The notes below the pieces were generated by a model. The model was given only the letters and a program-made list of their open reading frames with translations. It had not been told where the DNA came from and did no database searches. Below, in pieces: positions 7,171 to 59,005 of a stretch of 64,000 bases of DNA. Every line of letters begins with the position of its first letter. Within the stretch, counting starts at the first letter, position 1. The position numbers were made by a program, and so were the translations under genes. Location: contig JAAYEH010000479.1 in assembly GCA_012728855.1 (NCBI GenBank), positions 1 to 64,000 on the forward strand. The letters run 5' to 3'. Origin of the DNA: Rhodopirellula sp. (lineage in GTDB: Bacteria; Planctomycetota; Planctomycetia; Pirellulales; Thermoguttaceae).

Positions 7171-7252
7171 CGACAGTCCCACTTAATCCAACCTCTGAAT
7201 CGCGCCGTCCACACCAATCGGGAACACCATTCATCCTGCGGGAGCAAGCAAT

Positions 7253-9586: not shown

Positions 9587-9611
9587 GTTTCTTTCGGTGA
9601 TATCTCCAAGC

Positions 9612-10472: not shown

Positions 10473-10485
10473 GATTCGTCAAGGC

Positions 10486-41131: not shown

Positions 41132-42604
41132 CTACGATTCGCAATCGCGCCGCCTCTCGGCAAACAACTCGTTCAACCTCTCCAGGTCGACCGGTTTGAC
41201 GAGGTGGGCGTCGAAGCCGGCGTCGAGGGCTTGGCGCCGGTCGTCCGGCTGTCCGTATCCGGTCAGTGCCACCAGGAAAACACCGTCGTTCTGCGGATTT
41301 TTTCGGACGGCGCGGGCAACCTGGTAGCCGTCGAGTCCCGGCAGGCCGATGTCGACCAGGGCGACCTCGGGGCGTTGGAATTCGATCATCTCCAGTCCCT
41401 GCAAGCCGGATTCGGCTACGGCGACTTCGTGGCCGTCGAGTTCCAGTACGGTCTGGAGCATTTCCCGGGCGTTGGGGTTATCTTCGACGACGAGGATCCG
41501 CATCTCCGAAACGTTGGACTCGGGCGCGGAATGCCTTGCCGTGCGCCGCGCGGGAGTCGTCAGGGGCAGTCGGACCGTGAAGGTGCTGCCACGGCCGAGG
41601 CCCTTGCTCTCCGCCACGACCGTGCCGCCATGGAAGCCGACCAGGCTTCGCACCAGGGCCAAGCCAATCCCCATTCCGCCGTTGGACTTGGCCAGCGAAC
41701 TTCCCTCCTGGACGAACGGCTCGAAGATGAAGTCGAGCTTATCGGGGTCGATGCCGATGCCGTCATCTCGGATGCGGACGATCACTTCCGATCGATCGTG
41801 TTCGGCAATCAACCGGATGTGCCCGCCCGGTTCGGTGTACTTTGCGGCGTTGGTCAACAGATTGGCGAAGATCTGGTGGAGGCGCGTCGGATCCCCTTGT
41901 ACGTAGATCGGGCAGCGTGGAACGTCGAGATCGAATCCAAGTCGGTTTTCACCGATCAACGGCAGCACGACCTGCACCGCCTGATGGATTGTCTCGCGGA
42001 GGTCAATGGCTTCCTTGCGAAGTTCGATTTTGCCTTCGCAGATCCGGGAGACGTCGAGGAGGTCGTCCAAGAGGCGGGTCATCTGGCGGCTTTGCGTGTC
42101 GATGACGTCGCGGGCGCGGCTGAGTACCCTCTGGTCGTCCGCGGCGCGCTGCAAGATGCGGGACGCATTGACGATGGCCGCCAAGGGGGTGCGCAGTTCG
42201 TGGGAGAGAACGGCGAGAAACTGATCGCGTCGCCGCAGGGCTTTGCGGTTCTCCTCTTCGCGCCGCTTTCGCTGCGTGATGTCGCGAAGCGTGGCCAGAT
42301 GCGCGCGATTCCCCTGCCATTGGATTTCGACCGCCCGCATCTCCGCAACACGGCGCTCGCCATCGGGGGCGAGGTAGTCGATCTCCGTCGCCACGTCTTT
42401 GGCGATGGAGATTTCGAGTCGATTGCCCCGCAACTGCGCGCAGGTACGCCCCAACATGACCGCTGCCTGCTGATTCACGAAACGAATCGTCAAATCGTCG
42501 CCGACGACAAGGATCCCGTCCGCGCATTGTTCGACGATCGCCTGGAACCGGGCATCGCTCGCTTCAAGTCCGCGTTGCAGAACCTCTTTCGTCTGGACGC
42601 TCAT
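41132..42604 (-). CDS. Soluble PAS hybrid histidine kinase with receiver domain
   Basis: 490 residues with no membrane segment. A PAS domain covers ~15-110 (FQAIVEQCADGILVVGDD). The H-box LAVLSHELRTPLAAIVN gives phospho-acceptor His135. The ATPase has the N-box FANLLTNAAKYTEPGG, DDGIGID and GGMGIGLALVRSL. A C-terminal receiver (~367-485) has VVEDN, phospho-acceptor Asp418 (VALVDIGLPGLDGY) and VKPVD. A classic sensor with a built-in receiver. It lies 30 bases behind the CsrA-receiver gene on the same strand, so the two almost certainly work together: the kinase may phosphorylate the CsrA fusion. Confidence 0.93.
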   Translation of the reverse strand: MSVQTKEVLQRGLEASDARFQAIVEQCADGILVVGDDLTIRFVNQQAAVMLGRTCAQLRGNRLEISIAKDVATEIDYLAPDGERRVAEMRAVEIQWQGNRAHLATLRDITQRKRREEENRKALRRRDQFLAVLSHELRTPLAAIVNASRILQRAADDQRVLSRARDVIDTQSRQMTRLLDDLLDVSRICEGKIELRKEAIDLRETIHQAVQVVLPLIGENRLGFDLDVPRCPIYVQGDPTRLHQIFANLLTNAAKYTEPGGHIRLIAEHDRSEVIVRIRDDGIGIDPDKLDFIFEPFVQEGSSLAKSNGGMGIGLALVRSLVGFHGGTVVAESKGLGRGSTFTVRLPLTTPARRTARHSAPESNVSEMRILVVEDNPNAREMLQTVLELDGHEVAVAESGLQGLEMIEFQRPEVALVDIGLPGLDGYQVARAVRKNPQNDGVFLVALTGYGQPDDRRQALDAGFDAHLVKPVDLERLNELFAERRRDCES

Positions 42605-42634: not shown

Positions 42635-43414
42635 TTACCTGTCCGCCGAGCAGGTACATGTTTCCTGAAGTTCGCGCGAAATCTCGTGGACCAGGGATTC
42701 CGGGTTTACCGGCTTGGGGAACCATCGATCGATGCCCCGTGGACCGGTGGCCACCCCGAGTTCGCTCGGCGATGTACCGCTGATGGCAAACACCTTGAGG
42801 TCGGCAAGCCGCGGATTGTCGCGGATCGAAGCGATGGTAGCGCGGCCGTCCAGCCGCGGCATCATCATGTCCAACAGGACGACGTCCGGCCGCTCGTGCG
42901 TGGCGAGGTAATCCATCGCGGCGGAACCGTCGCCGGAGGTGGCCACGTCGAACCCGCTCACCCGCAGGAAGCCAGCCAGTAGTTCGCACTCATTGGCGTC
43001 GTCTTCCACAACGAGCGTGCGGCAAGCGCGGGGCGGCCCCGTCGCGGCGCTGGGCTCGGACTTGATCGCGGCGGCCTCGGCTTCCAGGGCTTCGAACTCA
43101 TGCAGGATCTTCTGGTACGTCTCTTCCGCCTGTTCGACCATGCCGCGATCCAGCAGCTTTCGGAACAGGTGCAAGGCGAGATTGGCCGCATGCAGCCGAT
43201 TGCGCACCGCATGCGACAGGCGGCGAGTGGGCGAGATCACGCCGGAACCCGGCAGCGCTTCGTCGTCGACGAGTTCTTCGCGCAGGATGCGAACGTCTTT
43301 CGGGGCTTTCACTCCCAAACGGGCCGTGTTTCCCTTGATCCGCAACACCTCGAGTGTTACGCCGAGATTGGGGAAAACGAGCTTCTCGCCTTCGCGGCGG
43401 GAAAGAACTAACAT
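42635..43414 (-). CDS. CsrA domain fused to helical segment and response-regulator receiver
   Basis: 259 residues from the ATG preceded by a perfect AAAGGAGG; a frame reading further upstream adds residues with no CsrA character. Residues 1-50 are a full CsrA RNA-binding domain: MLVLSRREGEK with Leu4, Arg6 and Arg7, then LGVKAPKDVRILREEL with the Arg equivalent to E. coli Arg44. A helical region (~62-118) has SHAVRNRLHAANLALHLF, like a DHp or H-box pair. Then a receiver domain with VVEDDANE, phospho-acceptor Asp182 (LLDMMMPRLDG), Ser in AISGTSP and Lys in FPKPVNP. A CsrA under direct phosphorelay control is unusual. Co-transcribed with the hybrid kinase. Confidence 0.93.
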   Translation of the reverse strand: MLVLSRREGEKLVFPNLGVTLEVLRIKGNTARLGVKAPKDVRILREELVDDEALPGSGVISPTRRLSHAVRNRLHAANLALHLFRKLLDRGMVEQAEETYQKILHEFEALEAEAAAIKSEPSAATGPPRACRTLVVEDDANECELLAGFLRVSGFDVATSGDGSAAMDYLATHERPDVVLLDMMMPRLDGRATIASIRDNPRLADLKVFAISGTSPSELGVATGPRGIDRWFPKPVNPESLVHEISRELQETCTCSADR

Positions 43415-43746
43415 GGTGGCCTCCTTTCCAACATTACGCGCAGAGCGGCTTGGGTCAACGCGCGCTCCGTCTCCAAGGATTTGCTTCACGCCGGACAACA
43501 CCGCTTCATCGGACCCGCCTGCAGGGCAGGCGGAACCGCATGACCATTGCTCGACATCCTTGTCGGAAAGGACTCCACACGGGGAGAAAGGGCTTCCTGC
43601 CCATACAATTCTCCGGTCGTCCGCTATCGTTCTACTCAAAGAACGGATTTTCGACAAGCCCAACTGTTGTCGTTCCCCTCCGCTGGGTAGTTCGGCGAGT
43701 GGAAGGCTGCGACGAGATTGACGCCGCTGGCGGAACGAATGACAGG
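43415..43746. other. Intergenic region with hairpin CCGCCTGC-AGG-GCAGGCGG
   Basis: No credible gene. A perfect 8-bp stem with a 3-base loop lies at 43515-43533; without a T-run it is a weak terminator at best. The promoter for the CsrA-receiver operon should be here, but no clear -35/-10 pair is visible. Confidence 0.4.
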
Positions 43747-45444
43747 CTATCCCGCGACTGAAGCGATGGTCCGCGACGACGACCGTTGCGACGAGGTGGG
43801 GGCGCAGAGCCGTTCGACGTCGCCCAAGTCGTTGAGCAGGCAGGGGTGCTTGTATTGTTCCATGTTGCCGCCCAACCCGGAGGTTCGCTGCAGGCGAAGA
43901 CGTTCCCAGGCGCCGTGCGGTATCTTGCGGAGTTGAAGTGGGCGGAGACGCCCGGACTCGAGTCGTTCGGCATACTCGCGGTTCATCAGCGACAGATGCC
44001 GATCGATGCTTCCGGGCAGAACCTCGTCCGCCACCGCACCTATACCCCCTTCGAGCAGTAGCTCGTAGCCCGCGGGATCACCGAAAACCGGAGCGACGCT
44101 GAATGTCTCCATAGGCAGACCGACTTCGAGGAAGCCGCTGCGGACCGCGGAGACGACCTGGAACTCGCTCAACTTCTCTCCGGTAATGTTAGAGTAGTGC
44201 GCCCCTTTGTTGAGAAATTCGAGGATCGGCACTGTGCCTTCAAAACCGACGCACCGGATCAGGTCGTGAATGTCGTAGCGATAGAACCCGCTGGAAGTTG
44301 TCAGCACGATAAAATAGTTCTGGTTCTCCTCCAGTTCGTGGGCTTCCAAAACCGTGGGATGCGGTTTTCCGTACTCGGCTTCGGGGATGAACTCGAAAAA
44401 GCTGTGAACATAGTCGAGCATCCCGGCGGGTGTGCCGTCCCGGAAAGGCAGCGTCATACGGCCCTCGCTGGCCGACAGACCGTGGTCGCGAATCGCCGTA
44501 TCGCCATAGTACTTCCGCAGGCACGGAAGATAGGCGCCGGCCGAACCGCCCGTCCAAATGGCGAGGACCGACAATGCCGGCCAGAAGTCGCGGGGAAAAA
44601 GTGCGCCGGTTCGCTCGACGATCCGCTCCAGTTCCCTCGCCCGCGCCGGGTCGCGACGTGCGATCCAGCGGCGAAGGCTGTCGCGGACTTCGCCGGGCAT
44701 ATCTACCCAGTCGGAGAGGGCGCCGTCGAAAAGGTCGCGGATCAGGGATTCCCGGCGACCGTCGGCCAATCGCGCCAATTCGACCAGGGTGCTTGGGTTG
44801 GCGGTGACGATCATCCCGACGCTGCGGTCGGCAAGGGACAGACGTAAGGCCGTGTAACGCTTAGCGATAGGATCGCAAATCTTCGTCAATGCGCGGGGTA
44901 GGAGAAAAATCGGCCGGCTGATCCAGGGTGCGGTCTCGGCCGCCAGCCCGCTGATGTTGCCGCAGGGAGTGCCCCCCTCGGTGGCGAACTGCCGCCAGTT
45001 ACTGCTGAACTGCAGCGTTCTCTTGCGCAGCAGATCCGTATGGTCCGCATAGGTCCGCAGACCCCACAGGTTCCACCCCTTGCGATATTCGTTGAAGAAT
45101 TCGCGGGTGACCGGGATGTACTTGGCGTCGCCGGTTGTTCCGGAGGTGAGGGCAAACATCAGCAAACGCGTACCGGGCCCGAATAACGCGCGCAGGTCGC
45201 CTCGCTTCAGCCGTTCGATGTAGGGCCGGTAGTCGTCGTACGAGGTGATCGGCACCTCTCTGCGAAAATCCTCCACCGTACGAATTCGCGCGAAATGGTG
45301 GCGGCGGCCGAAAACGCTCTGGGTGTGACGGCGAATTTTCTCCAAGAGAACCTGCCGCTGGATTTCACGCCCCCGATCAGCCGCCGACAGAAACTGCCGG
45401 ACCTGGAGGCCCCGCGCCAGAAGATAGCTCCTTTGAACGATCAT
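43747..45444 (-). CDS. GH3-family acyl-amide synthetase (adenylate-forming)
   Basis: About 565 residues, typical of bacterial GH3 proteins. Adenylate-forming motifs: LTSGTTGDAKYIPVT (phosphate-binding loop), then TSSGFYRYDIHDLIRCVGF near 390, which matches the plant GH3 block preceding the hinge. GH3 enzymes adenylate a carboxylic acid (jasmonate, auxin, fatty-acid-like) and join it to an amino acid or amine. I chose the ATG at 45444; a GTG at 45558 would add 38 residues that overlap a repeat-like sequence, so it is less likely. Last gene of the biosynthetic cluster; probable tailoring step that makes an amide. Confidence 0.85.
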   Translation of the reverse strand: MIVQRSYLLARGLQVRQFLSAADRGREIQRQVLLEKIRRHTQSVFGRRHHFARIRTVEDFRREVPITSYDDYRPYIERLKRGDLRALFGPGTRLLMFALTSGTTGDAKYIPVTREFFNEYRKGWNLWGLRTYADHTDLLRKRTLQFSSNWRQFATEGGTPCGNISGLAAETAPWISRPIFLLPRALTKICDPIAKRYTALRLSLADRSVGMIVTANPSTLVELARLADGRRESLIRDLFDGALSDWVDMPGEVRDSLRRWIARRDPARARELERIVERTGALFPRDFWPALSVLAIWTGGSAGAYLPCLRKYYGDTAIRDHGLSASEGRMTLPFRDGTPAGMLDYVHSFFEFIPEAEYGKPHPTVLEAHELEENQNYFIVLTTSSGFYRYDIHDLIRCVGFEGTVPILEFLNKGAHYSNITGEKLSEFQVVSAVRSGFLEVGLPMETFSVAPVFGDPAGYELLLEGGIGAVADEVLPGSIDRHLSLMNREYAERLESGRLRPLQLRKIPHGAWERLRLQRTSGLGGNMEQYKHPCLLNDLGDVERLCAPTSSQRSSSRTIASVAG

Positions 45445-45696
45445 CTCCCTGCGTACCCTTACTCCAACAATCGCCCTTGTACCGGTCAGGATATCATACG
45501 CTGGTCGAAAAGCCCAACTCGGATATTGGCGAAACGCATCAACGAGTGGGGCTGGCACCCTCGTTTTTCAGTGTTTCGCCACTACTGAATGCCAAGAGAC
45601 GCTCGGGTTGTGGCGGAGCCAACAGCACACACGGCGCCGTCCTGGCAACCCCCATGCCGGTGACGCTCGGCAGGGTGTCTGCCAGGATCGCCAAAG

Positions 45697-47667
45697 TCAT
45701 GACACCGGCCCCGGTTTCTCGACGTCGGGCGGAGGCAAGTCCGCGAGGCTTCGATCGATGTAGGTGCAGTGCCACAGTTGCGTGGAAATCACGCCGACCA
45801 GGCCCATCTCGATGAACAGCCGCCGGAAGCCCTTCCGAATGCCCCGGAACTCATCCCGCCACCGCCCGACCGCCTCGGGGTCGAAATAGCCCGCCTTGCG
45901 AAGCGAAGACTCGCTTAACAACTGCTCGCCCCACGGTGGAATCGGCGCCTCGTGGAAGGCGTCCAACGGTGCGTGGAGCAGTTGTTTGCGACCCTCGGTG
46001 ACGGCCGGCGGAAGCCATCGCCCGGCCAGCTTGCGTTGGAGATACTTGTCGACCAGTCCTCGCAACTTCCAGCGGGGATGGAGCCGCGCCAAAAACCCGA
46101 CCAGGTCTTCGTCGAGGAAGGGATACCGCGGCTGGACGGAGGCATGCATCGCCGAGCGGTCGCCGCGAGCCGTGAGGTGCAATCCGGCCAGGTGGATTTT
46201 CGCCCCCATGTAAACGCCCCGATTCAACGGATGCCACTTCCGCATCCGCGCACCGTCCAGCCCCAGATCTTCATAGCCCAGATAGTCGCCGGTCGCGTCG
46301 AGCATTGCGTCGCTAAAAAATCGGTGTTTCGTCGTGCTCGTCAGGTGATAGACCAAGAGCCAGGCGTTATGGCCTCCAGCAAGCTCCTCCGCTTGCGCGA
46401 TCTTTGCCCAGGGATAGTCCCGCCAGTGACGAACCTGCAAATAGCGCCGGAAGCCGCGGCGGTTTAGCGCCAGTCCCGGTATCAGATCGAGGTAGCCGAG
46501 CTTCTTGTCGATGCGAAACCAGGGATAGCCCGCCTGCCATTCGTCGGCGCCTTCGCCGGTCAGCACGACTTTGCCGCCGGCCGTGTGGACCGCCTCCGCC
46601 AGGCGAAACAGCGCAGCCGCCGACGTATCGATCACGGGGCTTTCGGCTGCCCGCACGAGGCGAGGGAAGACGCCCAGGATGTCCGACGGGGTGCAGTGCA
46701 CTACCGTCGGCGATGATGTGCCGACGTGCTTCGCGACGACATCGGCACCCGCCGATTCGCGGAGATGGGGATGTTCGATCCGGAACGTACAGGTCGGCAG
46801 CGGTTCGCCCCGAATCCGGCGGGCCATGGCCACGATCATGCTTGAATCCAGGCCGCCGCTTGAATAGGCCATCACCGGAACATCGGTCCTCAATCGGCGG
46901 CGAATCGCCTCGAACAATAACGCATCGTACCGGTCGACCAGCTTCGACGCTTCCCCGTCCTCCTCCTGCCCACGATCGGGGAAATCCATTTGCCACCAGG
47001 TTCGCTCGCGAGGCTCGGAGGCTTCCTTCGAGCGATCGATGGTGAGAGAGCGACCGGGCAAGAGCGAATAAACCCCCTTGAAGCACGTCAGCGGGCCGGG
47101 CAGGCCGAAGAACGTGAAGATCTGGCTGATGCCGCGCAGTTCCGGCCGCGGCTCGACCATCCCGGAGGCGAGAAGAACCTTGATTTCCGAAGCGAACAAA
47201 AGCCAATCGCCTTGGCGCGTCCAGTGCAGTGGGCAGACCCCAAACCGGTCGCGAGCCAGCAGCAACCGCCGCCGGCGCCGGTCCCACAAGGCCAGCGCGA
47301 ACTGTCCGCTGAGCGCGTCGAGCATTTCCTCCCCATGGTCTTCCCAGAGGTGTGGCAGCAGGGCTTCGTCCGCGGCGCCGGAAATGCGGTGCCCGTGGCT
47401 CTCGAGGCGGTTCCGCAACTGCGGAGCGTTGGACAAGGCGCCGTCGAACGCGGCGACTACGGTGCCGTCCTCGCCCGCCGGCAAAGGGCGAGGCATGTTC
47501 GGGCCGACCAGTCGAAGCCGCCGCACGACGAGCCCAAACCCCGGCTCCTCCGCGCCGACTTCGTCATCCGGTCCGCGATGGCGCATCGCCGCGGCCATGC
47601 GACCGAGAATACCGCCGGGGACCGAACGCCGCTGCTGCAAATCGATAATGCCGGCGATACCGCTCAT
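45697..47667 (-). CDS. Asparagine-synthetase-like amidoligase lacking the glutaminase cysteine
   Basis: 656 residues with the AsnB layout: N-terminal Ntn glutaminase-like domain (~2-210, with RHRGPDDE, RLRLVG, AAFDGALSN, LARDRFGVCPLHW) and C-terminal ATP-pyrophosphatase domain (PP-loop YSSGGLDSSMIV, ~268-279; GEGADEWQAGYPWF). The residue after Met is Ser instead of the catalytic Cys (MSGIAG against MCGIAG), so glutamine hydrolysis should be lost, as in beta-lactam and carbapenam synthetases. It probably makes an amide using ammonia or an internal amine on a pathway intermediate. A palindromic element lies nine bases before the start, and no good ribosome site is seen. Confidence 0.88.
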   Translation of the reverse strand: MSGIAGIIDLQQRRSVPGGILGRMAAAMRHRGPDDEVGAEEPGFGLVVRRLRLVGPNMPRPLPAGEDGTVVAAFDGALSNAPQLRNRLESHGHRISGAADEALLPHLWEDHGEEMLDALSGQFALALWDRRRRRLLLARDRFGVCPLHWTRQGDWLLFASEIKVLLASGMVEPRPELRGISQIFTFFGLPGPLTCFKGVYSLLPGRSLTIDRSKEASEPRERTWWQMDFPDRGQEEDGEASKLVDRYDALLFEAIRRRLRTDVPVMAYSSGGLDSSMIVAMARRIRGEPLPTCTFRIEHPHLRESAGADVVAKHVGTSSPTVVHCTPSDILGVFPRLVRAAESPVIDTSAAALFRLAEAVHTAGGKVVLTGEGADEWQAGYPWFRIDKKLGYLDLIPGLALNRRGFRRYLQVRHWRDYPWAKIAQAEELAGGHNAWLLVYHLTSTTKHRFFSDAMLDATGDYLGYEDLGLDGARMRKWHPLNRGVYMGAKIHLAGLHLTARGDRSAMHASVQPRYPFLDEDLVGFLARLHPRWKLRGLVDKYLQRKLAGRWLPPAVTEGRKQLLHAPLDAFHEAPIPPWGEQLLSESSLRKAGYFDPEAVGRWRDEFRGIRKGFRRLFIEMGLVGVISTQLWHCTYIDRSLADLPPPDVEKPGPVS

Positions 47668-47675
47668 TGGTTGTT

Positions 47676-47771
47676 AGAGCCTATCCCAAAACCTTGGCGG
47701 AGAGGGGGACAGGCACATTTTGCTCCGAAGACTCCGCAAAATGAGCCAGTCCCCGGCGGTTTTGGGATAGG
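47676..47771. repeat. Palindromic element, copy B, directly before the AsnB-like gene
   Basis: Identical over 96 bp to copy A at 26935, including core GGGGACAGGCAC and GAGCCAGTCCCC. TTGTTAG flanks it on both sides as a 7-bp direct repeat, as expected for a target-site duplication. It starts nine bases before the AsnB-like ATG, where a ribosome site would normally be. Confidence 0.85.
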
Positions 47772-47896: not shown

Positions 47897-49135
47897 CTAC
47901 CTGTGAAAGACTTCGTTGAGCAACTGATCTAGTTCGGCGTCGGATTCGTAGCAGGCGAGCTTGGGATGGGCTTTCAGGTGCGCGAGGATTTGGGCGACTT
48001 GATCGTCGTCTAGCGTTATGCCGTGCTCTTCGAAGCGGTGGCGGACCGCGCGGCGCCCGCTGTGCTTGCCGAGGACAAGCCGCAGCGGCGGTGCGCCGGT
48101 CTGTTCGGGCAGGAAGGGAAGATAGGAAAGGGGATCTTTCAACAGCCCGTCCTGATGCACGCCCGACTCGGTGACAAACAGATTATCGCCGACGACCGGC
48201 TTGTTCGCTGCCGGTTGCACGCCGGTGAGCCGGGCTACCAGGCGGCTCAGCGCGTAAAGCTGGCCGGTGTCGACATGGCAATGGCGTCGATACTGGTCCT
48301 GGTGGAGTTCGACGGCCATCGCGACTTCTTCCAGCGGCGTGTTGCCGGCCCGCTCGCCGATGCCGTTGATCGTCCCCTGGACGATGTTGACCCCCTCGGC
48401 CACACAGGCTAGGGCGTTGGCCGTGCCCAGGCCCAGGTCGTTGTGGAAGTGGACGGCCACGAGCGCCGCGTCGATGTTGGGCACGTTGTCCTGCACCGCC
48501 TTGATCCGATCGGCGGCCTTCTCGGGGGTGAGGATGCCGACGGTGTCGGCGAAGCCGATCGTGGTGGCTCCTGCGTCGATCGCCTCGCGGTAGATCTCGT
48601 GCAGGTAGTCGGGCTCCGTGCGGCCGGCGTCCTCGGGTCCGAAGGTGACGATGCTGAAACACCGTTTGGCGTACTGGATGGCGTCGACCGCGATTTGAAT
48701 AATCTCGGCCTTGGACTTACGGTGCTTCTGCTCGCGATGGACCGGGCTGACGCCGATGTAAACGGTGATGCCTCGCTTTAGCCGGCTCGCTTCCTCCAGC
48801 GCCTCGGCCACCCGATCGATGTCCTGGGGCAACGTGCGGCAATGGGCGGTGATCACCGGGCCGTGGACCTCCCGGACAATGCGACGAATGGCTTCGACCT
48901 CTTCGGGCGAGGCGGCCGGCGAACCCGCGTCGATCGAGTGCATGCCCGCCGCGGCCAAGGCTTTCGCAATCGTCACCTTGGCTTCGGGGTTTAGGCGCAC
49001 GCCGGACATCTGTTCGCCGTCGCGGAGGGTTGTGTCCGAAAGGAACAAGAGACCCTGCCGCTTGTGCCGCCAAATCGCGGCGCGCTCGACCTGCCGGATG
49101 ACTCGGGCCAGCATCGGGAGTCTCGCTTCCCCCAT
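47897..49135 (-). CDS. 2-isopropylmalate/homocitrate-synthase-like DRE-TIM enzyme without regulatory domain
   Basis: 412 residues. Catalytic TIM barrel with LSDTTLRDGEQMSG (~32-45), HFHNDLGLGTANA (~229), IGERAGNTPLEEV; then an IPMS-type linker (NKPVVGDNLFVTESGVHQDGLLKDP, LVLGKHSGRRAV). The leucine-sensing C-terminal domain of LeuA is missing, so feedback control by leucine is not expected. Known family chemistry: Claisen condensation of acetyl-CoA with a 2-oxo acid. Its ATG directly follows the polyketide-synthase stop (TAGATG), so it is translationally coupled and belongs to the pathway. It may make a branched or lengthened acid precursor. Substrate unknown. Confidence 0.9.
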   Translation of the reverse strand: MGEARLPMLARVIRQVERAAIWRHKRQGLLFLSDTTLRDGEQMSGVRLNPEAKVTIAKALAAAGMHSIDAGSPAASPEEVEAIRRIVREVHGPVITAHCRTLPQDIDRVAEALEEASRLKRGITVYIGVSPVHREQKHRKSKAEIIQIAVDAIQYAKRCFSIVTFGPEDAGRTEPDYLHEIYREAIDAGATTIGFADTVGILTPEKAADRIKAVQDNVPNIDAALVAVHFHNDLGLGTANALACVAEGVNIVQGTINGIGERAGNTPLEEVAMAVELHQDQYRRHCHVDTGQLYALSRLVARLTGVQPAANKPVVGDNLFVTESGVHQDGLLKDPLSYLPFLPEQTGAPPLRLVLGKHSGRRAVRHRFEEHGITLDDDQVAQILAHLKAHPKLACYESDAELDQLLNEVFHR

Positions 49136-52100
49136 CTAGCCGTCTTCCTTCAATGCCGGGTCGTCTTTGCTTGCCAGCCGCGTCATGAGGCGCTCCGCCA
49201 ATTGTCGGACATTTTCCCCGGCCATCATCGTGAAGTGGTCGCCCGGCACGGTCTCGACCAACAGGGTCAGGCCGGGGATTTGCTTCCAGCCTAAATCCGC
49301 CTCCAACTCCTGGCCAGACGCATCTTCCAAGACTCGGGTCACCGTGGGCCGGAAGAGCCAGACGGGATGGTCCAGCCGCACGGGCGCGTAATTGACCAGG
49401 GCCTGCACATTCGCCCGGCTGGCCTCCACAAGTCGTTCGATGTGGTCCACCGAGACGTCGGCTTTCATCACTCCGTGCCGCTTGGCCTCCTCCAACGCCA
49501 TCGTCAGCCGCTGTTCGGGAGCCTGGGATCGCAACTGCTCGTAGGACAAGCTCATGTTGCTGTTGGCAAAATAGTTGGAAAAGCTCACCAGGTCGTAGAG
49601 GAAACGGGCTTCATCGTCCAAGTCGACATTCTTGAAAATCGTCGGCGTGGGAGTGTCGAACATCGCCAGGCCGCCCAGTTCATCTTCGTCTCGCAGACGA
49701 CAGGCGATTTCGTAGGCGTAGATCCCACCGGTCGACCAGCCCGCCAGGTAATAGGGCCCCGCCGGTTGCACTTCCCGGATGCTGCGTATAAAATCGTTGG
49801 CCAAATCGTACATGTTGCCGTGCGGTTCTTGACCGGCTTCCAGGCCACGGCCGCGCAATGCGTAGACAGGCCGGCTGCCGGCCATGTTTCGAGCCAACTC
49901 GAGATAGCAGCGCACATCGCCGCCGATCGGATGGACACAGAACAAGGGGGGCCCGTCTCCGTCGCGCTGAAGCGGAACGATCGCTGTCCATTCGGCTGTT
50001 TTGCTTGGGGGTGAAACCACGGCTCGCGCCGTCTCATCGCGCTGGGGCGCGGCCGACTCACCACCCGCGAATGCGTCGGCGGCGGCCTCCGCCAGCCCGG
50101 TCACACTGGGGCCTTCCAGGAACCGTGCCATCGGCAGGGTCAGATCCAATCGTTGCTCGAGGTTGTTCTTCAATTCGATCACCATCAGCGAGTCGAGGCC
50201 GAGCATGCTCAGCGGCTGGTGTACATCGACGCCCGACGGATCGACTTGCATGATGCGGGCCAACTCTCCGGCGAAGTAGTCGCGGAGCCGTTCGACGCGC
50301 TGCTGGGAATTCAATCCCGCCAACACATTGCGGAAAGCATGGTCGACCTTGTCCTCGCCGGCGGTGTTGGATTCCGCGCCTTCCCCTTCCATCCGTTGGA
50401 GCATCGGCGGCCTGCGGCCGCGGAATTGCCCGATCAGGGCCGGCCAATCCGCGTCGATCACGGCGGCCGCGGCCAGTTCCGACTTGAGCAGTGCCGTGAG
50501 GGCGTCCAGCCCTTTGCCGGCCGGGATCAGGCCCATCCCCCTCGCGGTCATCTGGCCGCCACGGTCGGCTTGCACTGCCATTCCGGAATCAGCCCAGGGC
50601 CCCCACTGGATCGACACGGCGGGTAAGCCCAGAGCGCGGCGATAGTGAGCCAGTGCATCGAGAAATGCGTTGCCCGCGGCATAATTTGCCTGCCCCGGCG
50701 AACCGAGCACGCCGGCGATCGAGGAGAACAGCACAAAGAAGTCCAGCGGTGCATCGAGCGTCGCCGCGTGCAGGTTCCAGGCGCCTTCGACCTTGGGGGT
50801 CATGGCCTTGTCGAGTCGGGCCAGGTCCATGTCGAACATCACTCCATCGGCGAGCACGCCGGCGGCGTGAACCACGCCGCGAAGCGGTGGAAAGTCTCGC
50901 GGAACCTGCGCCAACGCGTCGTCCAGCGAATCTCGCGAACCGACGTCGCCCTGGACAGCCACCGCGCGCACTCCCTGCTCGTGCAGGGCGTCGATCGCCG
51001 CGGCGGCTTCCTCCGACGGATCTCGGCGGCCCATCAGCACCAGGTATTTCGCGCCTTCGGAGGCCAGCCAACCGGCGACCCGCAGCCCCAACGCCCCCAA
51101 ACCGCCGGTGACCAGGTAGGCGCCGTCGGAGCGGACCAGGGCGGGAGTCGCCTGGACTTCGTCCACTTCGTCGACTTCGTCCGCGCGTTCGAGCGACACG
51201 ACCACTTTGCCGATATTCTTCCGCTGTGCCATGTAGCGAAAGGCCCCAACAACGTCGTCGATGGGGAAAACCGTCATCGGCAGCGGCTGGTAGACGCCCG
51301 ACTCGAAGTGCGTCATCAGTTCCGCGAACAGATCGCGAATGTCGTCGGGGCGCTGGCGGAGCATGCGGTCCAGATCGATGGCGGAGTAGCTCAAATTGTC
51401 CTGGAAGGGCAACAATCCAATCATGCGATTCTGGTAGATGTCGGTCTTACCGATTTCCAGGAAACGGCCGTAGGCCGCCAGGACGGAAAGACTCTTGCTG
51501 ATCGCATCGCCGGGGAGTGAGTTGAGGACAATGTCCACGCCCTGCCGATCGGTTGCATCGAGGATCTCCGCGGCGAAATCGAGCGTGCGGGAGTTCATCA
51601 CGTGCGGCACGCCCAGCGACTGGAGAAACTCCCGCTTGGCATCGCTTCCGGCCGTGGCGAAAACCTCGCCGCCGATGTGGTGGGCGATCTGGATGGCGGC
51701 CAGCCCGACGCCGCCCGCACCGGCGTGGATCAGCACCCGCTCGCCCGGGCGCATGGCCGCCAGGCGGACGAGGGCGTAATAGGCCGTCAGGAACGTGATC
51801 GGGATCGTGGCGGCTTCTTCGTCGCTGAGGAAGGACGGCTTGGGAACCAGCGCGTATTCGGCTGTGATCGCATGAGAGGCGAAGCTGTACGGGGCCACGC
51901 CCATCACCGCATCGCCCACCTGGAAACGGTTTGCGCCTTCGCCCACCGCAGTGACCACTCCCGAGCACTCGATGCCCAGCGGGATGACTTCATCGGTGAT
52001 GCCCGGATAAAGTCCCATCGCCTTGAGCACGTCGCTGAAGTTGAGCCCGGCGGCGCGAACCTCGATCTCCACCTGGCCGGCTCCGGGGCTGCGCCGCGGA

Positions 52101-55100
52101 TTGGCCTCGAACCAGAGCGAGTCGAAACTGCCGGAACTGCCGGTCCGCAACCGGAACGCAGCGCCGCGCGGCGCCCGCTTCGCCGCAGGGTCGTCCGTCG
52201 CGATCGCGACGGCATCCGCGGCGGACGTGAGGCGAGCGACGAGACGATCGTCGCCGCGATAGGCCACCTGCGACTCCTCCGCGGGCGCAGCCAGTTCCGC
52301 GAGCAGGCAGCGGGCGTTCTCTCCGCCACTAGCATTCGGGTCGAGGTCGAGAAGGCGACATCGCATCTCGGGATGCTCCAGCGCGGCCACCCGGCCCATG
52401 CCCCACAGGGGCGTCTGCACGGGGGAAATCGCTTCTTCCTCGCCGGCCGCTTGGGCGCCTTGCGTCACCAGCCAGAGGCCGGGCGGGCGGGCGAACTTGG
52501 ACCGCGCCAGTTGCTGCACCAGCCGCAACACACTCGCGCAGCCCAGGCGGCGCGACTCGGCCAGCGGCGGGTCGCCGCCGTCGGCCGGCATTCCCAGGTC
52601 GAGGCTCCAGAGATGCACCACGCCGGCGCATTGTCCGCCCGCCTGAAACGCCGCCTCGAGCAACTGCCGATAGTCGTCGCCTTCCAGCGGATCGATCGTC
52701 AAAGTCTCGCGCTTCGCGGTTGCGCCGTTGCCCTGGGCGACCGAACTACTCCCGGGGCGCACCACAATGCACCGCCGGCCTTGCGCCGTGAGGCTTTCGA
52801 CGAGCTTCTCTCCGGTGCCGCCTCGATCCGAGAAGATCAGCCAATCGCCTTGCGGCGCTTCGGTCGCCGTCTCGATCGCTTGCGATTGCCAGTCGACGCG
52901 GTAGAGCCATGAGCGAATATCGCCTTGCCTGTCCTGGCCCTGCGATCGCCCCACGCGCTGGACGCGAACGCCTTCCAGTTCCACCAATACCCGACCGCCG
53001 TCGTCGATCAGAAGGACATTGCCTTCCACCGTCTCCGGGCTGGGGCGGCTGTCGCTGGACGTGCGGACCGCGTAGGTCCACATCCGCTCGGCCAAATCCG
53101 CATGCATCCGCACCGCCCGGACGAACACCGGCATGTACGTATAAGAACTGTCGCTCCCATCCGTCTCACGCGGCACGATGCCGGCCATCGACTGAAAACA
53201 AGCGTCCAATAGCGCCGGGTGCAAGTGGTACTGCCCCAGTTCTTTCGCCACTTCCGGGGAAAGTTCCACCCGCGCCAGGGCATCGTGGTCGCTGCGGCGC
53301 AGGTCATCGAGCACTTGGAAAGCCGGACCGTAAGCCAGTCCGCGGGCGGCGATCTGATCGTAGAACTCCTGCCGAGTCCGCCGGTCGACCGCCCGCCGGC
53401 GAACCTCGTCGCGATCGATGCGAAGCGGTTCGTCGATTGCCGGAGCGTGGCGGATCTTCCCGCACGCATGCATCGACCAGCGGATAGCCGTATCGGCCGA
53501 GTCGGCCGGAGCGCTGTAGACCTCGAAAATCGATTCGCCGCCCAATTCCGGCGACACGGTCACCTGCACGATACGGCCGCCGCCGTCCGGCAAGAACATC
53601 GCCTGCTGGATGGCCACGTTTTCGACCGTGTGCCTGCCGGGGCCGAACATCTGCTCGGCCGCCGCCATACCTTGTTCCACGTAGGCCGCGGCGGGCGTCA
53701 CGGGAGAGCCCTGCACCTGGTGGTCGACCAGATACTTCGGCGAACGATTGCTCAGCCGGCCCTCGAAGAGCGATTTTTCCACGGCCGTTGGGATGGGGCT
53801 TCCCAAGAGCGGGTGAACCGCAGGACCGCGCCCGCCGGCGAAATCGCGGCGGCTCCCCTTGCGGTTGTCGTCGAACCAATAGTGTTTTCGCTCAAAGGGA
53901 TAGTTCGGCAAGACTAGCCGGCGACGAGGCCACGGCCGGTCGAACCCCTGCCAATCGATCTTGGCGCCCAGCAGGTAGAGCTTCGACAAGGAGCCCGAGA
54001 GCACCTGCCAGTCGTCCTGACCTTTTCGTAGCGAGGGGAGCCAGAGCGTGTTCAGTTCGGGCATGACGCGGCGGCCCATGCCCAACAGGCTCGGCGTCGG
54101 TCCCACCTCGACCATCGCGTGGACCTGCTGACCGGCCGCGGTTCGAAACCCATCGGCAAAGCGGACGGCGTTGCGGACGTGGCGGCGCCAATAGGCGGCG
54201 TCCGGAGGCCCGGCGAGAAGATCGCCGGAAAGGTTCGACACCAGCGGTACGCGGGGCGCCTGGTAGGCGATCTCGCCGGCCAATCGCTCGAATTCATCGA
54301 GCATCGGCTCCATCAGCGGGGAATGGAACGCATGAGAAACCGTCAACTGCCGCGAAGCGATTCCTTCTGCTTCGAAGTCGGCGACGAGTTCACGCACTAC
54401 CGCCGAGGCGCCGGAAATCACCGTGTTTTCCGGGCCGTTCGCCGCGGCGATCGATACGCAATCCGAGTAGGGCTCGATCGCTTCGGCCACCACGTCGGCA
54501 TCGGCGAAGATCACCGCCATGAGGCCGTCGTGGGGCAATTGCTGCATCAACCGCGAACGGTGGGCGATCAGTTTCAGGCCGTCTTCCAGGCTGAATACGC
54601 CCGCCACACAGGCGGCCACGTATTCGCCGACGCTGTGCCCAAGCACCACGTCCGGCTCGACGCCCCAGGACCGCCACAGTGCGGCCAAGGCGTATTCGAT
54701 TGCGAACAGAGACGGCTGCGTGTACGCCGTCTCGTCCAGCGGCGAATCGCCACCCGGCTGCGGGTAGATCACCGACAGAAGCGGAAGCTCAAGCTCACCG
54801 CGAAGGATCTCGTCGCATTGCGCGAGCGCCTGGCGAAACACGGGCTGGGTCTCGTACAGCGCGCGGCCCATGCCAACGTGCTGCGACCCCTGACCGGTGA
54901 AGAGAAACGCCAGCTTGGCGCGCGGCACGACCTTCACCTGGCCGTAGCCCTCGGAGGTCTCGCCGTTGGCATAGGCCGCCAGCTTCCGTCGCAGCGAGGG
55001 GCGGTTGGCGGCCGGCAGCGCCAGCCGATGGTTGAAATGCGAACGCCCGGCATTGGCCGAGAAACCGACATCGGCGATCGCGGCCTCCGGATGGCTGTCG

Positions 55101-56584
55101 AGCCAGTCGACATAGTTGCCTGCCAGGCTCTTCAACGCCGACGGCGTCTTGGCCGACAAGGCGATTAGGTCGAGAGGCCGGTCCGTCGCCGCCGCGGCCG
55201 GTTCCGCCGCGGATGCCTCCTCGAGTACGACGTGGGTGTTAGTGCCGCCGAATCCGTAGGAGCTGACCCCTGCGATTCGCGGACCTTGAGCTTGCCAGGA
55301 AGCAAGCTCCCGCGGAATCACCAGCCGTGTGCCGGCGAGCTGGATATTCGGGTTGAGCGATTCGAAATACGCTTGCGGGAGGATCTGCCGGTGTTGCATC
55401 ATCAACACGACCTTGATCAACCCGGCGATGCCGGCGGCGGTCTCCAGATGGCCGATGTTTCCCTTGACTGATCCCAGGTAGCACGGCCCCGCGGTCTCGG
55501 AAGCGCCGCGGAAGATCTTGGTCAAAGCCTGCACCTCGATGGGATCACCCAGCGGGGTTCCGGTACCGTGGGCTTCGATGTAGCCCACTTCGTCGGGCGA
55601 GAGCCCGGCCGATTGCAGGGCTGCGCGGATCGCCGCTTGCTGCGAGATGCTGTTCGGTGCGGTGATGCCCGAAGTGCGGCCGTCCTGATTCACCGCGACG
55701 CCGCGGATGACGGCCAGGACGCGATCGCCGGCCTCAACCGCGTCGGTCAACCGCTTCAGCACGACAATCCCGCATCCTTCGCCGCGGATATAGCCGTTGG
55801 CCGAGGCGTCGAACGGCCGGCAGTGGCCATCGGGGGAGAGCATGTGGGCGTTGGAGAAGGCGATGGTGGTCTCGGGGCCGAGGATCAGGTTCACTCCGCC
55901 CGCCAAGGCCGCGTCGGTTTCGCGGCTGTGCAGGCTGGCCACCGCCAGATGCAAAGCGACCAGCGCCGACGAACACGCCGTGTCGACGGCCAAACTCGGG
56001 CCGCGGAGGTCGAGGATATAGGAGAGCCGGTTGGCGGCGATGCTCAGCGCGTTGCCGGTGCCGCCGTAGGCGTCGATGTGCTCGAAGTAGTTGTCGTAGT
56101 GGGCCGGCAGCTTCGAGTAGTCGGTGCCGCCAATGCCGATATACACGCCCGTGTTCGAACCGGCCATCCGCTCCGGCGCCAGGCAACCGTTCTCCAACGC
56201 CTCCCAGGCGACTTCCAAGAGGAGCCGCTGCTGCGGGTCCATCTTACCCGCCTCGCGCGGCGTGATGCCGAAAAAGAGCGGATCGAACTCGCCCACCCGC
56301 TCGACGAATCCGCCCCAACGGCTGTTGATCTTGCCGGGAATATCCGGGCGGGGATCGTAGAAGGCGTCGATGTCCCAGCGGTCGGTCGGAACCTCGAGGA
56401 TCGCACTGCGTCGTTCGACGAGCAGGCGCCAGTACGCGTCGAGATCCGGTGCGCCCGGCAACCGGCATGCCATGCCGATGATTGCAATCGGCTCGGCGGC
56501 TTCGGGCTTCTTCTGTAAACGCTGTTCCAGCAACCTCCGCTTTTCCGGCGAGAGGTTGGCCAGTCGCTGGGAAAGCTCGGCCAT
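49136..56584 (-). CDS. Fully reducing type I polyketide synthase with thioesterase
   Basis: 2482 residues, one module. KS (~33-455): Cys204 (VDTACSS), His339 (EAHGTGT) and His379 (GNIGH). AT (~557-870): GHSVGE (Ser651) and HAFH at 751-754, which points to malonyl-CoA. DH (~924-1205): H955-QVQGSPVTP and Asp1127. A long linker/pseudo-KR (~1225-1530) precedes ER (from ~1535, with HAGAGGVGLAAIQIAHHIG). KR (~1890-2070): TGGLGALG, HAAGVLADG (LDD-like, B-type) and Ser/Tyr site. ACP with GLDSLM (~2165). TE (~2230-2480) with GWSTGG and a catalytic His in VPGDHF. All reductive steps are present, so it should make saturated chains, probably iteratively. Downstream of a fatty acyl-AMP ligase with ACP; upstream of a coupled LeuA-like gene. 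Confidence 0.95.
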   Translation of the reverse strand: MAELSQRLANLSPEKRRLLEQRLQKKPEAAEPIAIIGMACRLPGAPDLDAYWRLLVERRSAILEVPTDRWDIDAFYDPRPDIPGKINSRWGGFVERVGEFDPLFFGITPREAGKMDPQQRLLLEVAWEALENGCLAPERMAGSNTGVYIGIGGTDYSKLPAHYDNYFEHIDAYGGTGNALSIAANRLSYILDLRGPSLAVDTACSSALVALHLAVASLHSRETDAALAGGVNLILGPETTIAFSNAHMLSPDGHCRPFDASANGYIRGEGCGIVVLKRLTDAVEAGDRVLAVIRGVAVNQDGRTSGITAPNSISQQAAIRAALQSAGLSPDEVGYIEAHGTGTPLGDPIEVQALTKIFRGASETAGPCYLGSVKGNIGHLETAAGIAGLIKVVLMMQHRQILPQAYFESLNPNIQLAGTRLVIPRELASWQAQGPRIAGVSSYGFGGTNTHVVLEEASAAEPAAAATDRPLDLIALSAKTPSALKSLAGNYVDWLDSHPEAAIADVGFSANAGRSHFNHRLALPAANRPSLRRKLAAYANGETSEGYGQVKVVPRAKLAFLFTGQGSQHVGMGRALYETQPVFRQALAQCDEILRGELELPLLSVIYPQPGGDSPLDETAYTQPSLFAIEYALAALWRSWGVEPDVVLGHSVGEYVAACVAGVFSLEDGLKLIAHRSRLMQQLPHDGLMAVIFADADVVAEAIEPYSDCVSIAAANGPENTVISGASAVVRELVADFEAEGIASRQLTVSHAFHSPLMEPMLDEFERLAGEIAYQAPRVPLVSNLSGDLLAGPPDAAYWRRHVRNAVRFADGFRTAAGQQVHAMVEVGPTPSLLGMGRRVMPELNTLWLPSLRKGQDDWQVLSGSLSKLYLLGAKIDWQGFDRPWPRRRLVLPNYPFERKHYWFDDNRKGSRRDFAGGRGPAVHPLLGSPIPTAVEKSLFEGRLSNRSPKYLVDHQVQGSPVTPAAAYVEQGMAAAEQMFGPGRHTVENVAIQQAMFLPDGGGRIVQVTVSPELGGESIFEVYSAPADSADTAIRWSMHACGKIRHAPAIDEPLRIDRDEVRRRAVDRRTRQEFYDQIAARGLAYGPAFQVLDDLRRSDHDALARVELSPEVAKELGQYHLHPALLDACFQSMAGIVPRETDGSDSSYTYMPVFVRAVRMHADLAERMWTYAVRTSSDSRPSPETVEGNVLLIDDGGRVLVELEGVRVQRVGRSQGQDRQGDIRSWLYRVDWQSQAIETATEAPQGDWLIFSDRGGTGEKLVESLTAQGRRCIVVRPGSSSVAQGNGATAKRETLTIDPLEGDDYRQLLEAAFQAGGQCAGVVHLWSLDLGMPADGGDPPLAESRRLGCASVLRLVQQLARSKFARPPGLWLVTQGAQAAGEEEAISPVQTPLWGMGRVAALEHPEMRCRLLDLDPNASGGENARCLLAELAAPAEESQVAYRGDDRLVARLTSAADAVAIATDDPAAKRAPRGAAFRLRTGSSGSFDSLWFEANPRRSPGAGQVEIEVRAAGLNFSDVLKAMGLYPGITDEVIPLGIECSGVVTAVGEGANRFQVGDAVMGVAPYSFASHAITAEYALVPKPSFLSDEEAATIPITFLTAYYALVRLAAMRPGERVLIHAGAGGVGLAAIQIAHHIGGEVFATAGSDAKREFLQSLGVPHVMNSRTLDFAAEILDATDRQGVDIVLNSLPGDAISKSLSVLAAYGRFLEIGKTDIYQNRMIGLLPFQDNLSYSAIDLDRMLRQRPDDIRDLFAELMTHFESGVYQPLPMTVFPIDDVVGAFRYMAQRKNIGKVVVSLERADEVDEVDEVQATPALVRSDGAYLVTGGLGALGLRVAGWLASEGAKYLVLMGRRDPSEEAAAAIDALHEQGVRAVAVQGDVGSRDSLDDALAQVPRDFPPLRGVVHAAGVLADGVMFDMDLARLDKAMTPKVEGAWNLHAATLDAPLDFFVLFSSIAGVLGSPGQANYAAGNAFLDALAHYRRALGLPAVSIQWGPWADSGMAVQADRGGQMTARGMGLIPAGKGLDALTALLKSELAAAAVIDADWPALIGQFRGRRPPMLQRMEGEGAESNTAGEDKVDHAFRNVLAGLNSQQRVERLRDYFAGELARIMQVDPSGVDVHQPLSMLGLDSLMVIELKNNLEQRLDLTLPMARFLEGPSVTGLAEAAADAFAGGESAAPQRDETARAVVSPPSKTAEWTAIVPLQRDGDGPPLFCVHPIGGDVRCYLELARNMAGSRPVYALRGRGLEAGQEPHGNMYDLANDFIRSIREVQPAGPYYLAGWSTGGIYAYEIACRLRDEDELGGLAMFDTPTPTIFKNVDLDDEARFLYDLVSFSNYFANSNMSLSYEQLRSQAPEQRLTMALEEAKRHGVMKADVSVDHIERLVEASRANVQALVNYAPVRLDHPVWLFRPTVTRVLEDASGQELEADLGWKQIPGLTLLVETVPGDHFTMMAGENVRQLAERLMTRLASKDDPALKEDG

Positions 56585-56707: not shown

Positions 56708-59005
56708 TTACGGGTTTTGGGGCTCGCGCTCCAGCGCGGCCGCGACGTCGTCGTCGCTGAGGTTCTCGATCTCCGCCAAGAGCTTCTCGAAGTCGCTCTC
56801 GGCCGATGGAGACTCCTCCGCTTCCCCCCCGGTCGGTTCCTCATGTCCCGAGACTTTGCCAGCGACCTCGTGTGCCAGATATCCTGCCAGCGATGCAGCC
56901 GTGGGATAGTTCCAAGCCACGACCGGTGTAATCTCGACGTCCAGCCACTCTTCCAATTCGCGGCTCAATTCTACGGCGGTCATCGAATCCAGACCATACT
57001 CGGCAAACGGCTTGTTCCGGTCGAAATCGCTCGTCCGCAGCCCGGCGCGTTCGACCAGCCAGTCCAGCAGACGCGTCTCGATTTGCTCGGCAAGCCGCTC
57101 GATTTCATCCTCCCGCAACGCCCGATCGAAGGGGCCTATTTTGGGCAAAATCTCCATCCCGGTCTTGCCCGACCGCTCGCGGCTTTCTGGGCGGACGGTA
57201 GCCCTGTCGGCCGTTGGCCCTCGCGTCGGCGCCTGCCACAGCGCCAGCACCTTCAACTCCTTGTCCAAGTACTGTTGCCGGCAGAGATTCCGCTGCACTT
57301 TGCCGCTGGTGGTGCGGGGAAGGCTTGCCTGCCTAATCAGGACTACCGCCAGAACGTCGAGTTCGTGCTCTTCCGCCACCGCAGCGCGGACTCGTTGGGC
57401 CACGTCATCCAAATCGGTGTTGCGATACTGGCGATCGACCTCGTTGACCACCACCAGCCGCTCGCCCCCCTGGTGATCTACGGCAAAGGTCGCTCCGGCG
57501 TTCGCAATCAGGGCGGGATGAGCACGGTTGACGGTCAGTTCAATGTCTTGCGGATAGTGGTTCCTGCCCCGGATGATGATCACTTCTTTGAGCCGTGCCA
57601 CGACAAAGAGGTTGCCGTCGCGAATAAACCCGAGATCTCCCGTTCGCAGGTACGGGCCCTCGCCCGTGTCCGCCAGCAATCCGCCGAAGGCCGACGCGTT
57701 TTCCTCCACGCGATTCCAGTATCCGCGGGCGACGGCAGAACCCTTGATCCAGACTTCCCCGACGCGGTCGGCCTCGGAACGGAGTTGTGTTTCCGGGTCG
57801 ACAATCTCGATCGCCTGATCCAGTCGCGGTCTGCCGCATCCGATCACCCGTTGCCCTTCTTCTGCCGGATGGCCGTTGGTCGGCTCGATGCGGAGTTCGG
57901 CCAAGGCAGACCGCCGGAAGGAGCGGATCACCGGCCGGCCGGGACCTTTGCCGCCCGCGGCCAGCAGCGTTGATTCGGCCAGCCCGTAGCAGGGGTAAAA
58001 GGCATCGTCGCGAAATCCGCAGGACGCAAAGGTTTCGGCAAAACGTTCGAGGGTTTCCGGCCGGATCGGTTCGGCCCCGCAGAAGGCGAGCCTCCAACTG
58101 CTCAGATCGAGTTCCGCCCGCTGCTCGGGTGAGATCTTCTCAACACACAATTCATAGGCGAAATTCGGAGCGCCGCTGATCACGGCGCCGTAATCGGAAA
58201 TCGTCTTCAACCACCGCAGGGGACGCTGGAGAAAGGCGGCCGGCGACATCAGCACGCTGCGACCACCGACAAAAAACGGTTCCAGGATTCCGCCGATCAG
58301 TCCCATGTCGTGATAGGCCGGCAGCCAGGAAACGCCCGTCCCTTCCACCGGATCGGCGCAGATTCCGGCGATGTTGAACCCTTCGTAGATCATCGCCAGG
58401 TTCGACATCAGGTTGGCATGGGTGACCATGACTCCCTTGGGGTCACCGATCGAACCGGAGGTGTACTGGAGGAAGGCCAGGTGGTCGGGACCGATACCGG
58501 GGCGCCGCCAATCCGCGGCGCAAGAGGGATCAAGCGTGTCAGTCGCGAGCCATCCGACCGATTTCAGTTCCGGGGCGCTACGTGCCAGATCGAGTGTGGA
58601 GAGAGTCTGCGCGGCCGTCAATGCGAATGAAGCCCGCGAATCGGCGGCGATGGTGGAAAGCCGAGGCAGCGGCCGCCGCGGTTTCGGATACGTGGCCGGA
58701 ACCGGCAGCACTCCGGCCGCCACGCATCCCAGAAACGCCGCGATGAATTCCAATCCGGCGGGATAGACCAGCAAGGCGCGGTCGCCGACTTGTGCCCGTC
58801 GCTGTAGCGTTGCCGCGATGGACTTGGCACGCGTTTCCAGTTCGGAAAAAGTCAACGAACTCTCGACGCCGTCATCGCCCCGGAAAAGGTACGCACAACG
58901 ATCGGCTTTCGTTCGAGCCTGGTATTCCAGCAGTTCCAGGAGCGTGCGGGGCGCACTCTCCTCGCGAAAAACCAATTGAGACATCGGCTTGTAATCAGTT
59001 CCCAT
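56708..59005 (-). CDS. Fatty acyl-AMP ligase fused to acyl carrier domain
   Basis: 765 residues. Adenylate-forming enzyme of the FAAL group: YTSGSIGDPKGVMVTH (~181-196), SWLPAYHDMGLIGG, SGAPNFAYELC, YGLAES and LRTGDLGF. FAALs activate fatty acids to acyl-AMP and hand them to a carrier protein without using CoA. Residues ~630-710 are that carrier domain, with the phosphopantetheine Ser674 in YGLDSMTAVEL. An acidic tail (~715-765) follows. First gene of the cluster; it likely loads the fatty starter unit onto the polyketide synthase. A second in-frame ATG seven codons in is a possible start. Confidence 0.92.
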   Translation of the reverse strand: MGTDYKPMSQLVFREESAPRTLLELLEYQARTKADRCAYLFRGDDGVESSLTFSELETRAKSIAATLQRRAQVGDRALLVYPAGLEFIAAFLGCVAAGVLPVPATYPKPRRPLPRLSTIAADSRASFALTAAQTLSTLDLARSAPELKSVGWLATDTLDPSCAADWRRPGIGPDHLAFLQYTSGSIGDPKGVMVTHANLMSNLAMIYEGFNIAGICADPVEGTGVSWLPAYHDMGLIGGILEPFFVGGRSVLMSPAAFLQRPLRWLKTISDYGAVISGAPNFAYELCVEKISPEQRAELDLSSWRLAFCGAEPIRPETLERFAETFASCGFRDDAFYPCYGLAESTLLAAGGKGPGRPVIRSFRRSALAELRIEPTNGHPAEEGQRVIGCGRPRLDQAIEIVDPETQLRSEADRVGEVWIKGSAVARGYWNRVEENASAFGGLLADTGEGPYLRTGDLGFIRDGNLFVVARLKEVIIIRGRNHYPQDIELTVNRAHPALIANAGATFAVDHQGGERLVVVNEVDRQYRNTDLDDVAQRVRAAVAEEHELDVLAVVLIRQASLPRTTSGKVQRNLCRQQYLDKELKVLALWQAPTRGPTADRATVRPESRERSGKTGMEILPKIGPFDRALREDEIERLAEQIETRLLDWLVERAGLRTSDFDRNKPFAEYGLDSMTAVELSRELEEWLDVEITPVVAWNYPTAASLAGYLAHEVAGKVSGHEEPTGGEAEESPSAESDFEKLLAEIENLSDDDVAAALEREPQNP

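Follow-up and report, generated by a model that had tools for sequence, protein, structure and literature searches.

What does an enzyme of the asparagine synthetase family do within a polyketide synthase (PKS) cluster once its catalytic cysteine has become a serine? This question is raised by a gene located at 45697..47667 on the minus strand of the window, the whole 64,000-nucleotide stretch of Rhodopirellula sp. DNA (contig JAAYEH010000479.1) analysed here. Its product, an AsnB-family protein of 656 aa with the Pfam domains GATase_7/GATase_6 and Asn_synthase, comprises a degenerate glutaminase domain (residues ~1-215) and an intact synthetase domain. With 298.9 bits it exceeds the cut-off of the NCBIfam asparagine synthase model TIGR01536 (267.1 bits), and standard annotation would name it accordingly. 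It falls below the curated cut-offs of both the lasso peptide cyclase model NF033535 (155.4 bits, cut-off 525) and the XrtA/PEP-CTERM amidotransferase model TIGR03108 (310.6 bits, cut-off 816.9).

The open reading frame begins with Met-Ser-Gly-Ile-Ala-Gly, encoded by ATG AGC GGT for the first three residues, so that the original prediction, which gave no strand, had read the start correctly; it lies on the minus strand, as do all features of the cluster given below. The AGC codon (47662..47664) replaces the Cys codon at position 2. An upstream start yielding a normal Cys2 had been named as the observation that would speak against the prediction. Such a start was looked for and is absent: the codons in frame before the ATG are TAA-CAA-CCA, and the TAA stop (47674-47676), two codons 5′ of the ATG, makes it impossible for an earlier start to supply Cys2. 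The next in-frame Met is residue 24 and is not followed by Cys. A sequencing error is likewise ruled out by two further Ser2 orthologues, one of which comes from an independent assembly.

The latter, a same-genus protein (ATGAGCGGC; loci L004, L033 and L040), is 78% identical to the window protein; it also turned up as contig JABWBD010000009.1, from a Pirellulales metagenome-assembled genome (MAG). The third Ser2 protein (ATGAGTGCA; L125) belongs to a different taxonomic family, shares ~56% identity with the window protein and starts with Met-Ser-Ala. Its locus, contig 403 of genome G518, emerged when the neighbouring HMGL gene, which encodes an isopropylmalate/homocitrate-synthase-like enzyme, was used as query across the order. 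The L125 gene carries a frameshift near the C-terminus, at about 5850, in a fragmentary MAG, which could reflect either an assembly error or real decay. Ser2 members, whose codons are AGC, AGC and AGT, thus number three among the genomes sampled, including the frameshifted one. The remaining 44 distinct close orthologues, which come from across the class and show about 42-54% identity, all have Cys2, as do the two paralogues within the window's own genome.

In a quick tree search with support given as SH-aLRT, the three Ser2 proteins form a single clade (SH-aLRT 100) nested inside the planctomycete Cys2 family, with which the window protein aligns over its full length; the nesting is also seen in a tree lacking L125. 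The Cys2 branches closest to the Ser2 clade come from another family of the class. Since the clade is nested in this way, Ser2 is its derived state, and it represents a separate loss within the planctomycete Cys2 family.

Has only the cysteine been exchanged, or the glutaminase as a whole? (AsnB sites are numbered here as in E. coli AsnB, Met not counted, so that the cysteine is Cys1.) According to the original prediction the other glutaminase landmarks remain. This holds for the H-R-G-P-D motif and for the Arg49, Gly75 and Asp98 equivalents, but not for Asn74 of the oxyanion hole, replaced by Asp (residue 75; 47443..47445), nor for Glu76, replaced by Ala (residue 77; 47437..47439), and several further family-invariant residues within positions 52-101 have also changed. 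The Asn74 position is Asn in 43 of the 44 Cys2 orthologues and Asp in all three Ser2 members; the Glu76 position is Glu in all 44, Ala in the window protein and its sister L004, and Gln in L125. The Arg30, Gly75 and Asp98 equivalents are kept in all three Ser2 proteins and Arg49 in two of them, L125 being without both Arg49 and the GPD motif.

The changes are concentrated in this half. When invariant columns are defined as those with 43 or 44 of the 44 Cys2 family members identical, 10 of the 33 in residues 1-105 are changed in all Ser2 proteins versus 6 of the 87 in residues 106-590 (Fisher p 0.0018). Between the window protein and L125, identity is lowest over residues 1-120, at 39%; it reaches 70% over 121-215 and 56% over 216-590. 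A comparison pair of Cys2 proteins gives 68, 75 and 63% for the same segments. The equivalents of human ASNS Glu414 and Leu415, which form part of the gate network and tunnel (PMC11615228), are, as taken from the alignments, Q512 and P513 in the window protein and its sister and Glu and Thr in L125. Without Cys1, Asn74 and Glu76, the protein is very unlikely to hydrolyse glutamine, and its glutaminase chemistry has very probably been lost.

The ATP site, by comparison, has been retained. The PP-loop SGGLDSS that the original prediction pointed out is intact at residues 270-276 (46840..46860), and the equivalents of Asp351, Glu352, Glu348 and Lys449 are present in the Ser2 proteins. In the window protein, Glu348 corresponds to residue 372 (46552..46554), a position occupied by Tyr in the beta-lactam and carbapenam synthetases (BLS and CarA, respectively), and Lys449, which is Lys443 of BLS, to residue 561 (45985..45987). 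Changes common to all three Ser2 proteins are L269S, K385R, L497H, K501R, R559G, M563L and F564L. Residue 559 (Gly; 45991..45993) replaces AsnB Arg447, which an alignment of the RxK motif equates with Arg441 of BLS and CarA. Because this Arg, conserved across the Cys2 family, AsnB and (by alignment) BLS and CarA, is changed in every Ser2 member, the acceptor site or the synthetase chemistry may be altered.

Purifying selection acts on the gene, whose dN/dS against its same-genus orthologue is 0.11 (N-domain 0.117, C-domain 0.107), with dS near saturation; its neighbours in the same genome pair give 0.10 for the fatty acyl-AMP ligase (FAAL), 0.12 for HMGL and 0.14 for the PKS. An AlphaFold2 model covers the full length of the protein with a mean pLDDT of 86.9 and low confidence at 54-57 in the glutamine loop. 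The solved structures nearest to it are, in order, TsnB9 (Z-score 34.7), AsnB (33.4), human ASNS, BLS (28.6) and CarA (26.9).

TsnB9, the trichostatin hydroxyamidotransferase (PDB 7YLZ), is thus nearest by fold and also by sequence, and its substrate is a polyketide-type acid (PMC13418202). Unlike the window protein, it keeps Met-Cys-Gly and the Glu76 equivalent and obtains its nitrogen group from glutamyl hydroxamate. With E. coli AsnB (PDB 1CT9; TIGR01536) the window protein shares the two-domain fold, the PP-loop, Glu348, Lys449, Asp98 and Arg49; it differs in lacking the N-terminal Cys (Cys1 to Ser) and the Asn74/Glu76 pair (to Asp and Ala), in the changes Glu398 to Gln and Arg447 to Gly, and in being encoded in a PKS cluster. 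The planctomycete Cys2 amidotransferases (e.g., L041, L035 and L043) show about 42-54% full-length identity to it, but their glutaminase residues are intact and none of the 24 loci examined lies beside a PKS.

The original prediction had drawn a parallel with BLS (1JGT) and CarA (1Q15). The likeness is real in so far as both enzymes have lost Cys1, a loss seen here for BLS, and keep the ATP site. A closer kinship does not stand: in place of the LTGYG(A/S)D motif with its Tyr, the window protein has LTGEGADE, with Glu348 kept in all Ser2 proteins, and its structure is nearer to TsnB9 and AsnB. BLS and CarA are moreover shorter and of separate origin, and BLS keeps the Glu76 equivalent (LAGEIYN), which the window protein does not. 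Since it groups within a different family in the tree and does not have the Tyr, the protein was placed outside the BLS group. Taken together, the missing Tyr, the structure and the tree make ring closure one option among the amide-forming reactions, possible but not favoured.

The polyketide synthase neighbourhood, also part of the original prediction, is borne out: the gene belongs to a PKS cluster, and the order PKS-HMGL-AsnB(Ser2) recurs in a second taxonomic family. In the window the order is FAAL-PKS-HMGL-AsnB-GH3, all on the minus strand. The FAAL (56708..59005) is fused to an acyl carrier protein; the type I PKS module (49136..56584) has the composition KS-AT-DH-ER-KR-ACP-TE, with intact motifs for KS, AT (HAFH, malonyl type), ER, ACP and TE. 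The HMGL protein (47897..49135), at 412 aa, is shorter than full-length LeuA, and the last gene (43747..45558) encodes a GH3-family acyl-amide synthetase. OlsH, a characterised GH3-like lyso-ornithine lipid synthetase, makes N-acyl ornithine (PMC12493201) and so exemplifies ATP-dependent acyl-amide formation in a planctomycete; the window GH3 protein is of the same family, but its 109.5 bits lie far below the curated OlsH cut-off of 620, and its orthologues follow a PKS.

HMGL adjoins the Ser2 AsnB gene at all three loci. In the sister genome the gene order matches that of the window up to a contig end that cuts GH3, and on G518 contig 403 the Ser2 AsnB gene comes directly after HMGL (69% identity) and the PKS (49%). 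In G518, whose genome is 66% complete, there is no GH3 gene beside HMGL and AsnB and none among the matches listed in a GH3 search that appears to have included this genome. Near the Cys2 homologues (26 stretches, representing 24 distinct places) neither FAAL, PKS, HMGL nor GH3 was found; several of these loci adjoin exporter genes (FtsX/ABC/HlyD) or a gene for an SDR. Elsewhere in the order, at least eight genomes possess a conserved PKS-GH3 set, in several cases with FAAL, that is devoid of HMGL and AsnB (L109, L110, L111, L112, L115, L116, L118 and L120). As this set occurs on its own, HMGL and the Ser2 AsnB seem to have been added together to a lipopolyketide cluster that is older, and the FAAL-PKS-GH3 set of related genomes suggests a product of the acyl-amide type.

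HMGL was also considered as a class-wide marker of the cluster and rejected: its homologues of 48-60% identity, from one other family, do not neighbour PKS or AsnB genes at the 18 loci examined and consequently added no members to the cluster. One of them, at L160 (about 7098-10599; 51% identity), lies beside a GH3 homologue (39%) without a PKS. In three of the PKS-GH3 genomes an enolase-superfamily (MR_MLE) gene is found nearby, together with an alpha/beta hydrolase gene or ApbA and epimerase genes. Elsewhere in the window, a 94-base repeat with inverted ends occurs at 26937-27030 and, between the HMGL and AsnB genes, at 47678-47771; with ~41 mostly identical copies in the genome, it resembles a MITE- or REP-like element that has spread recently. 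An unusual fusion of a CsrA domain (84-133) to a response-regulator receiver domain (217-328) is encoded by a single ORF at 42635-43663 (minus strand), which adjoins a gene for a hybrid histidine kinase (41132-42604).

What, then, might this protein make? The explanation that we find rather probable is that of a glutaminase-dead, ATP-dependent amide synthetase in a lipopolyketide cluster, which would join a carboxylate to a directly supplied amine. A planctomycete Cys2 amidotransferase would have been recruited together with the HMGL enzyme into a FAAL-PKS(-GH3) cluster. There, the FAAL would charge its carrier protein with a fatty acid, which the fully reducing PKS would lengthen by malonyl units, and the thioesterase would free the chain. 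To judge from its family, the HMGL enzyme may provide a branched or homologated hydroxy-acid or hydroxy-diacid, or an amino acid if it works together with the housekeeping leucine enzymes. The AsnB-like enzyme would use ATP to adenylate a carboxylate; an amine entering the synthetase site directly would then yield the amide without ammonia tunnelled from glutamine. Acyl-adenylate chemistry is argued for because the ATP site is kept; if glutamine is not hydrolysed, the nucleophile would have to be either external or part of the substrate molecule itself. An external amine, such as an amino acid, is favoured because enzymes of the GH3 family (OlsH) produce N-acyl amino acids in planctomycetes and the Tyr of BLS and CarA is missing. 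Three points can be held against this reading: the adjoining GH3 enzyme could itself make the amide, which would put the role of the AsnB-like protein in doubt; Ser can act as the Ntn nucleophile in other enzymes; and the change of Arg 559 in all three Ser2 members may mean that the synthetase chemistry is altered.

A further-reaching proposal, which we regard as tentative and short of an even chance, sees in the Ser2 clade a glutamine amidotransferase that became, by a separate route, an amide or lactam synthetase specific to polyketides, paired with HMGL, re-tooled at the acceptor site (R559G, L497H, K385R, K501R and L269S in all three members) and making an undescribed lipid-like amide or lactam. 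AsnB-like reactions in natural products include lactam formation, lasso closure, C-terminal amidation and nitrile formation (PMC13060819) as well as hydroxamate transfer (PMC13418202). As this chemistry is already so varied, a further amide-forming variant would be plausible and not unprecedented.

Intramolecular ring closure, in which a chain that carries an amino acid is adenylated at one end and its own amine then attacks to form a lactam, the type of reaction known from BLS and CarA, would fit the intact ATP site and the loss of Cys1, shared with BLS, and the adjoining GH3 enzyme could first attach an amine-bearing unit. It nonetheless seems unlikely in view of the absent LTGYG Tyr, the separate origin, the structure closer to AsnB and TsnB9, and a single reduced PKS module that predicts a flexible chain instead of a pre-organised ring precursor. 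The original suggestion of ring closure or amide formation thus keeps its basis in a glutaminase very probably lost, a retained ATP domain and a PKS cluster, and loses the kinship with ring closers. The protein might instead produce a primary amide from free ammonia, its glutaminase half serving as scaffold only, since AsnB-type enzymes, both the canonical ones and PesC, accept free ammonia (PMC13060819) and the Glu348 equivalent is kept. We consider this quite unlikely: the surrender of a high-affinity nitrogen source would need explaining, and the tunnel-side positions Q512 and P513 (ASNS Glu414 and Leu415) are changed in the same-genus pair, though not in L125.

We hold two further explanations to be very improbable. 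Serine Ntn hydrolases exist, and the retention of Ser2 in all three proteins while the glutamine pocket decays could indicate a new hydrolase of this kind acting on another amide; against this, all three carry Asp at the position of the oxyanion Asn, Arg49 and the GPD motif are additionally gone from L125, and Ser and Cys codons are one base apart. That the gene is simply decaying or inactive might be read from the numerous conserved residues gone from the N-terminal half and from the L125 frameshift. It is contradicted by the dN/dS values, both overall and in the N-domain (synonymous sites near saturation), by frames that are open in two genomes and by the conserved synteny.

The Ser2 protein that would pass for an asparagine synthase thus probably forms an amide bond in a lipid-like natural product rather than asparagine. 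Loss of the glutaminase was part of the path that led from AsnB-type enzymes to the beta-lactam synthetases, and the Ser2 clade represents a separate case. Its Cys2 relatives, at about 42-54% identity, still have the whole glutamine site, which makes it possible to test in what order the changes came and what they do. For the planctomycetes, the finding flags an uncharacterised PKS cluster that is likely to yield acyl amides or lactams.
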